Source of the DNA: Certhia americana
Lineage: Eukaryota > Chordata > Aves > Passeriformes > Certhiidae
Direction of reading: 5' to 3'
Length of the DNA: 64,000 nucleotides
Assembly: GCA_018697195.1 (NCBI GenBank)
Contig: JAGMWU010000099.1
Location: 64,637-128,636 of the forward strand
Under the pieces are notes generated by a model that had not been told where the DNA came from, did not search any database, and worked only from the letters and a program-made list of their open reading frames with translations. Positions within the stretch are counted from its first letter, which is position 1; each line of letters begins with the position of its first letter. Both the position numbers and the translations under genes were made by a program. Positions 9,891 through 54,339 of this stretch are shown here, piece by piece.

Positions 9891-12800
9891 ATGGCGCCCT
9901 GGGTGCCCACCAGGGAGAAGTATGGCGTGGGTGAGTGGGGGCTGTGGGCACTGTGGGGGTTTCCACTCGGATCGAGGGGCACAAGGCTGGCGGAATGGGG
10001 TGCTCAGGGTCAGGTGACATCCATGGTACCACCCTCCCCCCGGCTCAGGGGGTGGCAGCTGGGTGATGGCACCAGTGGTGCAAAGCTGGTGCCATTGTGA
10101 GGGGACCGGGTCCCTGCGGTGCTGGCGCTGGCCGGGTGCAGGAACAAGCAGGGGCAGTGGGGGCTGCTGACAGAAGGCTCAGGGGAGGGGGCCAAGCAGG
10201 ACAGGTGCCAGCAGGACCCACCCACCTGGAGGCTCCAGAGCTGATCTGGTGGGGGTGGGAAGCACTGGGGCGCAGCACTGGGGTGAGGGCTCACCTTCCC
10301 TCCAGGCTGTGGGTCCGGGCTCAGCCAGGCTGCTGAGGCTTTGGGGGAACCTTGAGACACCCCAATAATTTTGCTACGGCTTTGCAGCTGCCTCGGTGTT
10401 AGCGATGGCAAAGCACCCCCGTTCCTTGCAGCACCCCCAGCCTGGGCTCCCCGTGCCCTGCACCCTGCCCTGTGCACCCCCACTGCCTGCAGCACCCCCA
10501 ACTTCTGCTGGCTCTGGCAGCACTGTGCTTCTTCCCGTTTCTTGTGGGGCCGTTTCCTGCACCCTTCCCTTGCACTCTCTGCAAGTGCTGGAGTGAGGGC
10601 TGAGCTTCTGCAGGGTTCTGGGCAGCACCTGAGCGAGGGCTGAGCTGCTGCTGGTTCCAGCTGGCTCAGAGTCTTTGTGGGGAGTTCAGGGTGATGGGAG
10701 CTCGGGGGTCCTAGTGCTGCAAGGTGTGAGGCTGCAAACGAGCCAGGTGGGTCTGAGGGTGCTGCAGTGTGAGCTGGCTGGGATTCGAGGTGGACACAGG
10801 CATGGTCCTGGGTTCAGGGGCTGTCCCCCAGTCTGAACAAACCAGAGCTGCCTGCAGCAGAGCTGTGCTTGGGGCCAGAAATAATGACAGAGGCAACCAC
10901 AGCGCAGCCGGGCAGGAAGCGGCTGGCCACCGGAGAGCTCCTGTCCCCACCGCCCCCCTCCCCTGCCACAAGCTCCGCTGTCCCTGGGCCACCAGTCCTG
11001 GGCAGGGGCTCAGCTGCCACTTGCCTCCCCACACTGCTTGTGCCAGGAGCAGGACCACCGGCCCCCAGGGTGTGGGTGGCAGGAAGAGGGGTCCCATAAG
11101 GGAGCCCTGAGTGCCAAAAGGGGGCTGGGGGCTTCTGCTGTGCCCAGCCCTGTGCGGGCTGTGCCATGGCTCTCCTGGTGTGTGGGGTCGGGGTGCTTGG
11201 GGGTCTCACGCTGTTTGTGGGCCTGGGGCTCTGCCCCAACTCTCGGGGCTGAACGGGGTGTGCTGGGGTGCTGTGGGGAGCACGCAGCCCGTGGGGGGGC
11301 TGGATGTGGGGTGCAGATGGACAGGGCCCGGGGGCTGGTGGGGGCTCCAGGCGGGGATCCCAATTCCCAGCCCCTCTTCCCGCAGCCGTGTGGAATTTCA
11401 AGCGCACCAAGGAACATCACCTCCCACTGCAGATCGGGGAGATGGTGCACATCCTGCAGGCCTCCGAGGGTAAGGGGGGTTCCTGGGTGGGTTCCTACAC
11501 CCTCCTTTGCCCCTCCATCAGGGGCCAGGACCCCCAGCCTGGCTGACAATGTCCCCTCCCCTCCCAGGCTGGTACTGTGGGTACTCACTCCGGAACAAGG
11601 CTGCCCGGGTAGGTGAGGGGGTGCTGAGGTTTTGGAGGCAAAAGGGGCACTGCTGGTGGCTTTCCCTGTCCCTGCTGGGTGTCTGGAGGGATAGAGGGGA
11701 CATGGACAGCGGCTTGCCCTGTCCCTGGGGGGACATTGGTGTTCAAGGAGAGCAGGAGGCACAGCAGGCTGGGCACCGTGTGGCATTGGGAGCCCCCAGC
11801 TGTGCCCCCTTAAGGGACATCTCCCATCCCGGGGGTTCCGACGGCTCTGGCTTCCTCAGGGCATCTTCCCGGCCTCGCTGATCCGGCTAAAGGGCGCCCT
11901 GGTGGAGCAGCGGGGGTAGGTACGGGGGCACGGGCAGGGGTGGTGAAGCTCCACCTTCTGCCCTTGCGGGGTCCCTGCGGGGTCCCTGCGGTGCTGAGGC
12001 ACTCCAGGGGTCCCTGTGCCTCCCCCAGGGTGCAGGAGAGCATGGTGCTTGCCGAGATGCCCATGGTGCAGGAGATCACCACCACGCTGCGGGAGTGGGC
12101 CACCATCTGGAAGCAGCTCTATGTGGTGAGGGACGAGGGTCGGGGGTGTCGGGGGGGATCTGGGAGCAGGCTGGGGGATCCCTGGTGGCCGCGGTGACCC
12201 TGTGGTGCTGCCGCAGACCGGGCAGACGGAGCGGTACGGGCAGGTGAAGAGGATGATGCAGGAGCTGATGGAGCAGCGCTCGCAGCTGCTCTCGGGGACG
12301 CTGCCCAAGGACGAGCTCCTGCGGCTCAGGAAGGAGGTGACCGGCAAGATGGACTACGGCAACAAGTGAGGGCGGGGACAGAGCACAGGGACCTCTGGCA
12401 CAGGCTGTGCTGTGTCCAGGTGTGCTTTCTGGTGTCCTGGCTGGTTGTCCCTGTGTCCCCATCATCCCAGCTGGCTGTCCCGTGATGGCTGGGGACAGTA
12501 AGTGTGCCACCAGCTGCTCAAGCCACCTGGCTAAGGGCTATGGCCTACGAGCTGTGGTTGGGATGGGAATGTCGCTGGTGCTGCTACCTCCTGTCCCCTT
12601 TCCCAGTCGGATCTGTCCTGCCCCCTCAGACCCCTGTGCAAGGACAGGTGAATCCTGGCGGGACACAGGGACCCATGTGTCCCCAGTCCTGCCTCACCCC
12701 ATCCCGGCCCCTGCAGGATCCTCGCGCTGGACCTGGTGGTGCGGGATGAGGATGAAAACATCCTGGACCCCGATAGGACCAGCGTCATCAGCCTCTTCCA

Positions 12801-54339: not shown

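Follow-up and report, generated by a model that had tools for sequence, protein, structure and literature searches.

Proteins of the DOCK-A (DOCK180) subfamily activate Rac in phagocytosis, muscle fusion and leukocyte migration, and their number in vertebrates is usually given as three (DOCK1, DOCK2 and DOCK5). Literature searches returned no publication describing a fourth DOCK-A gene (papers matching 'dock2l' were outside the scope). For the genomic neighborhood considered here, a section of PMC2446394 gives the human order LBX2-PCGF1-TLX2-DQX1-AUP1, and that section names no DOCK gene there. We analyzed a window of 64,000 nucleotides from the bird Certhia americana (assembly GCA_018697195.1; genome 1.07 Gb), which forms the right-hand end (positions 64637-128636) of the 128,636-bp contig JAGMWU010000099.1 (C99) and holds a gene that we call DOCK-X. 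We conclude with high confidence that DOCK-X is an intact fourth DOCK-A gene, most likely a sister of DOCK2 that arose in the two vertebrate genome duplications (2R) and was kept as an ohnolog at the LBX2/TLX2 locus. Mammals and several further lineages have probably lost it, and it is predicted to encode an ELMO-dependent Rac activator.

The coding sequence of DOCK-X (5424 nt; Table 1) runs from an ATG at position 9891 to a TGA ending at 54339, and this terminal codon is its only stop. A preliminary description of the window had claimed a complete, in-phase DOCK-A coding sequence with intact SH3, DHR1 and DHR2 domains; its coordinates proved exact, and spliced alignment resolved the gene into 52 exons separated by 49 GT-AG and 2 GC-AG introns. 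A retro-copy is ruled out by these 51 introns. The tail exons were fixed with the canary (Serinus) and sparrow (Passer) orthologues; after comparison with these two, an acceptor at 53042 that gave the wrong frame and three stops was rejected, and the acceptor at 53137 was taken. Pfam profiles identify SH3_2 (residues 11-63), DOCK_N, DOCK-C2/DHR1 (419-617), TPR_DOCK and lobes A, B and C of DHR-2, and this order of SH3, DOCK_N, DHR1/C2, TPR region and DHR2 is that of the DOCK-A subfamily. The DHR1 part aligns to the DOCK1 DHR1 structure 3l4c and the DHR2 part to the DOCK2 DHR2 structures 2yin and 3b13, while residues 1 to 1615 align to the DOCK5 structure 7dpa (2078 bits), the best solved full-length relative. 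The protein is 93-95% identical to its sparrow and finch orthologues and 67% identical to those of sharks. A galliform orthologue (P0011; 1816 aa, 96.6% identical to the quail protein) is encoded on a 6390-nt mRNA-like contig, shorter than a gene of such span could fit, which hints at transcription.

DOCK-X is one of four DOCK-A loci in this genome. Searching the genome with the window protein gave at least 33 exon matches (a lower bound, 29 of 168 candidates having been scored), which lie on four contigs, namely C99, C6, C13 and C29. The locus on C13 is DOCK2, with seven of eight sampled exon pieces 82-100% identical to tinamou DOCK2 and one at 64%, and that on C6 is DOCK1 (seven sampled pieces, 83-100% identical to bird DOCK1). 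The gene on C29, for which the X protein guided exon-by-exon modeling, clusters with DOCK5 in trees. The separate DOCK1, DOCK2 and DOCK5 loci that the preliminary description had suggested looking for are thus all present. The profile of DHR-2 lobe C, run against the genome, gave 10 matches on C1, C9, C24, C26 and C77, presumably other DOCK subfamilies, and matched none of the four DOCK-A contigs.

Phylogenetic analysis separates the four genes. The main tree comprises 39 rows (14 X, 9 DOCK2, 7 DOCK1, 5 DOCK5 and 4 insect; LG+G4 model; DOCK3/4 left out), and a second tree uses 26 of these rows under LG+C20, with the two longest insect branches (Tribolium, Apis) dropped. In both, X, DOCK2, DOCK1 and DOCK5 each form one clade, DOCK-X falls with vertebrate DOCK1/2/5 relative to the insect DOCK-A outgroups, and the topology is ((DOCK1,DOCK5),(DOCK2,X)). 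Deep branches have support of 99-100 in the Shimodaira-Hasegawa-like approximate likelihood ratio test (SH-aLRT) in the larger tree and of 100/99 or better in the smaller one. The approximately unbiased (AU) test under LG+G4 rejected DOCK-X as a copy of DOCK1 (X with DOCK1, p 1e-47) or of DOCK5 (X with DOCK5, p 2e-62). Chondrichthyan X rows are nested in the X clade in both trees, which places the duplication before the jawed-vertebrate crown. The topology is also the one expected from the paralogon: in a section of PMC2446394, the Lbx2/Tlx2 paralogon is matched to that of Tlx3, which holds DOCK2, and the Lbx1/Tlx1 paralogon to the site that once held Lbx4.

Gene structure points in the same direction. 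Within residues 1 to 1615 DOCK-X has 46 junctions, 45 of which agree in alignment column and phase with our DOCK5 model from the same genome. Intron 27 of DOCK-X, moreover, hosts a complete three-exon gene on the opposite strand (INSYN2-X; 28971-35524) that encodes a proline-rich protein of 608 aa, is open throughout and matches the FAM196 profile with an E-value of 1.5e-50 (173.6 bits, cut-off 27), which makes it a member of the INSYN2/FAM196 family. A genome search for this family, with all 11 candidates scored, gave 8 exon matches, found only on C6, C13 and C99; the DOCK5 contig C29 had none. An antisense INSYN2-family gene thus lies inside each of DOCK1, DOCK2 and DOCK-X. INSYN2B (C13, 14908384-14916126, minus strand) sits between the DOCK2 exons at 14901285-14901380 and 14937027-14937125, in intron 27 as does INSYN2-X, and INSYN2A (C6, 2238661-2264253, plus strand) sits between the DOCK1 exon pieces at 2201079 and 2312793; FAM196A is also listed in the DOCK1 cluster in the part of PMC6135963 used here. 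That three of the four loci combine a host gene with an antisense guest is best accounted for by duplication of large blocks, most simply by 2R. The ohnolog origin put forward in the preliminary description thereby gains support from presence in chondrichthyans, from shared intron positions and from the nested gene.

Four other explanations were weighed. The best-surviving one holds that DOCK-X goes back to an ancient segmental duplication of the DOCK2-INSYN2B block and not to a whole-genome event, and in the gene order of one genome a large segmental duplication of such age would indeed look no different from 2R. However, the block also has LBX2, TLX2 and a BNIP3 relative, genes whose paralogues are described at related sites in the sections of PMC2446394 and PMC5526904 consulted, and the four loci lie on four contigs with the 2R-expected topology; we regard a segmental origin as quite unlikely and a whole-genome one as probable. 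It is still less likely that DOCK2 was duplicated within bony vertebrates and that the shark sequences represent the unduplicated gene. The compared set held no chondrichthyan DOCK2, which leaves this idea some room, but shark X falls within the X clade at 100/100 in the 26-row tree, and the AU test (LG+G4) rejects both a grouping of tetrapod X with DOCK2 to the exclusion of shark X (p 1.9e-6) and X inside tetrapod DOCK2 (p 4e-53). We give next to no credence to DOCK-X being a DOCK2 relocated in its own lineage. Its orthologues carry the database names DOCK2 or DOCK2-like, and DOCK2 is the nearest named family by tree; yet the separate DOCK1, DOCK2 and DOCK5 loci, with a clear DOCK2 orthologue on C13 that has INSYN2B nested within it, refute relocation, and X and DOCK2 form separate clades (100/100 each in the 26-row tree), both with turtle and alligator records. 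The preliminary description had held that the gene would be simply a relocated DOCK2 if it grouped inside the DOCK2 clade in a genome with no other DOCK2; DOCK-X lies outside that clade, is not the sole DOCK2 candidate in the genome, and stands as a fourth gene. Finally, C99 is short and G+C-rich and its TLX2 homeobox exon looks frame-disrupted, but an unbroken frame of 1807 codons, joined at standard splice sites, the identities to orthologues given above and the mRNA-like galliform contig make a non-functional relic or assembly artefact scarcely conceivable.

To trace the fourth gene across species, we read its distribution from the best 120 of 2356 protein matches, which were placed in a FastTree tree together with the window protein and 8 DOCK1, DOCK5 and insect rows. 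The X clade takes 100 of these matches and DOCK2 20. By record name, the X rows comprise 7 chondrichthyans (sharks, rays and chimaera), 3 amphibians (one caecilian and two salamanders), 2 turtles and 1 alligator, the other 87 being birds or P0011. The DOCK2 rows come from 4 mammals, 3 squamates, 2 frogs, 2 teleosts, a coelacanth, a lungfish, 5 turtles, 1 alligator and 1 tinamou; turtle and alligator records are thus present in both clades. Among these best 120 matches, no X row comes from mammals, squamates, frogs, teleosts, coelacanth or lungfish. The full-length cartilaginous-fish X rows, at 2420-2545 bits, score above every DOCK2 row (2385 bits at best). If the X-less groups had an ordinary X copy, it would thus be expected among the listed matches, and repeated loss is the likely reason why mammals and the other groups are missing there. 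Sharks also have DOCK5, located beside GNRH1 according to the part of PMC6135963 used. Databases label the X proteins "dedicator of cytokinesis protein 2-like" or DOCK2. The records P0035 (Alligator mississippiensis) and P0080 (Callorhinchus milii) are called DOCK2, yet fall in the X clade, and are likely misnamed.

As to function, our best guess from the protein sequence is that DOCK-X is a Rac exchange factor working with ELMO. Its SH3 domain and N-terminus would bind ELMO, its DHR1 domain would bind phosphoinositide at the membrane, its DHR2 domain would expel the nucleotide from Rac, and its C-terminal PxxPx[KR] motifs would recruit CRK-type SH3 adaptors. Within DHR2, 12 of 14 X rows, including the window, share the stretch PLSMLLNGIVDPAVMGG unchanged, and the other two differ by a single I-to-T change; we take its Met and Val, both conserved, to match the specificity residue M1529 and the nucleotide sensor V1539 of DOCK2. 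In the tail, where motifs were counted by alignment column, PxLPx[KR] occurs in 12/14 X, 7/7 DOCK1, 4/4 tail-containing DOCK5 and 4/4 insect rows and in 0/9 DOCK2 rows, and the looser PxxPx[KR] in 14/14 X versus 3/9 DOCK2 rows. With the CRK-type motif in X, DOCK1, DOCK5 and insects and PxLPx[KR] absent from DOCK2, recruitment of this type is likely ancestral, kept by X and given up by DOCK2.

Several points weigh against parts of this interpretation, and the weakest step is the pairing of X with DOCK2. The AU test gives a modest signal against its competitors, with p 0.012 (LG+G4) or 0.0004 (mixture model) for X with DOCK1+DOCK5 and p 0.0106 for X as first branch, and all AU tests were picked once the first tree was known. 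The preliminary description had stated that residue patterns favor DOCK2, which holds in the trees but is weak as plain similarity: X is ~63% identical to DOCK2 versus 62% to DOCK1, its SH3 domain is nearer DOCK1 (56%) than DOCK2 (48%), and group-diagnostic columns are almost evenly divided (9 DOCK2 versus 8 DOCK1, 22 mixed). The trees contain no lamprey, hagfish or amphioxus, nor chondrichthyan DOCK2 or DOCK5, and the 39-row tree came with warnings about the long insect branches (Tribolium, Apis) and the odd composition of the canary row. For the shared introns, four edge pieces of three part-models were dropped before junctions were compared, and a DOCK5 model guided by the X protein favors matching junctions. 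INSYN2-X does not clearly side with INSYN2B; pairwise comparison puts its exon 2 and the coiled end of its exon 1 nearer INSYN2A and its exon 3 nearer INSYN2B. Fast-evolving X copies may have escaped the best 120 of 2356 matches from which loss was read, and the tails of the window and of the cormorant are without PxLPx[KR], both having PxxPxK.

Table 1 Features of the 64,000-nt window (positions from its first nucleotide).
Feature	Position	Strand	Basis and remarks
DOCK-X coding span	9891..54339	+	52 coding exons, 1807 aa; spliced alignment, in-phase joins, Pfam
DOCK-X first coding exon, ATG start (MAPWVPTREKYGV)	9891..9930	+	Orthologue starts such as MAPWLPTKEK
DOCK-X exons 2-4, SH3 domain	11386..11915	+	SH3_2, residues 11-63
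DOCK-X exons 14-18, most of DHR1/C2 (residues 419-617)	15581..19707	+	DOCK-C2 E 2.2e-60; aligns to 3l4c
DOCK-X intron 27, 18.6 kb, phase 0, host of antisense INSYN2-family gene	27073..45698	+	Spliced alignment
DOCK-X exons 28-47, remaining TPR region and DHR2 exchange-factor domain (residues 1201-1611), containing PLSMLLNGIVDPAVMGG	45699..52324	+	DHR-2 lobes A, B, C
DOCK-X exons 48-52, C-terminal tail, proline-rich end (SPPLPPPKSRRLSQL), TGA stop	52633..54339	+	Serinus/Passer orthologues, motif counts
INSYN2-X exon 1	34002..35524	-	FAM196 E 3.4e-19 on exon-1 frame; splice sites
INSYN2-X exon 2	31638..31712	-	Frames, splice sites
INSYN2-X exon 3 with stop, end RRKCFWFL	28971..29199	-	Frames, splice sites
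Helicase exons, likely DQX1	2540..5515	-	DEAH-like, DEVQ box, HA2, OB fold
BNIP3-family gene	55475..56487	-	Pieces 56487-56335, 55866-55711, 55540-55475; approximate exon ends
AUP1 exons	58407..63045	-	CUE domain near 58957-59019; tblastn with human AUP1

The surroundings agree with the LBX/TLX paralogon. Using human queries, tblastn located LBX2, PCGF1 and TLX2 further upstream on C99, as the preliminary description's placement in the TLX2/LBX2 paralogon implied; the helicase next to DOCK-X is likely DQX1, judged by its box and position, and AUP1 lies downstream. Taken together, these genes follow the order of their human counterparts. The described position between DQX1 and AUP1 is therefore right for AUP1 and likely for DQX1, but a BNIP3-family gene intervenes before AUP1; this gene and INSYN2-X were both absent from the preliminary description. 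Membership in the BNIP3 family follows from a profile match (E 6.9e-14) and tblastn matches with human BNIP3/BNIP3L, and the gene carries an SWVEL stretch as in BNIP3. The section of PMC5526904 used reports a third vertebrate BNIP3 lineage, BNIP3L2, only from ray-finned fishes and coelacanth; if the gene beside DOCK-X is BNIP3L2, birds have it too. Exons for the first ~113 residues of AUP1 were not found at 63045-64000, where the window stops at the contig end. For the TLX2 homeobox exon (C99:58717-59028), the match runs in two frames, one of them interrupted by a stop, which suggests that TLX2 is damaged or that the assembly slipped where the sequence is G+C-rich. A 336-bp tandem unit occurs twice in intron 27 of DOCK-X (43746-44408, 90% matches); long open frames run through it on either strand, and the two of them that were scanned gave no Pfam match. 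Plus-strand Pfam scans of both DOCK-X flanks gave no match, and neither ARAGORN nor Rfam reported a hit in the window at its threshold.

A fourth, widely kept DOCK-A gene would make the ancestral number four, one of them lost by mammals, and the "DOCK2" entries of alligator and elephant shark would be another gene. Through the nested INSYN2 copies, the history of a locus made up of host and guest can be seen directly in three of the four ohnologs, and the CRK-type tail of X makes what DOCK2 gave up directly testable. As a broader scenario, which we offer as possible though somewhat doubtful, the first jawed vertebrates may have had four DOCK-A Rac activators, and in three of these an antisense INSYN2 gene persists. 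The fourth, DOCK-X, would have retained the ancestral tail that recruits CRK and assumed some of the leukocyte or epithelial functions now fulfilled in mammals by DOCK2 and DOCK1. If true, the mammalian division of labor would need re-reading, as would 'DOCK2' studies on sharks, salamanders, reptiles and birds.

Compared with the known systems, DOCK-X resembles DOCK2 in being its sister clade, in carrying an INSYN2-family gene on the opposite strand of the corresponding intron and in its DHR2 domain (67-70% identical), but DOCK2 belongs to the TLX3 paralogon (according to the section of PMC2446394 cited), has formed a clade apart since before the split of sharks from bony vertebrates, and differs in its tail motifs. 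With DOCK1 (DOCK180), X shares the architecture, the proline-rich CRK-type tail, an antisense guest (INSYN2A) and an equally similar DHR2 (68-70%), whereas DOCK1 groups with DOCK5. DOCK5 matches X in intron positions and phases and supplies the best solved full-length structure, but forms a separate clade, is 56-57% identical (two rows) and lacks a FAM196-family match on its contig. The database "DOCK2-like" proteins of birds, turtles, salamanders and sharks are X orthologues named after DOCK2, and X sequences as such were already in databases. What is new is a third INSYN2/FAM196-family gene in intron 27 of DOCK-X: like INSYN2A and INSYN2B (FAM196A and FAM196B), INSYN2-X has three exons and lies antisense within a DOCK-A gene, and unlike them it is a more diverged, proline-rich copy.

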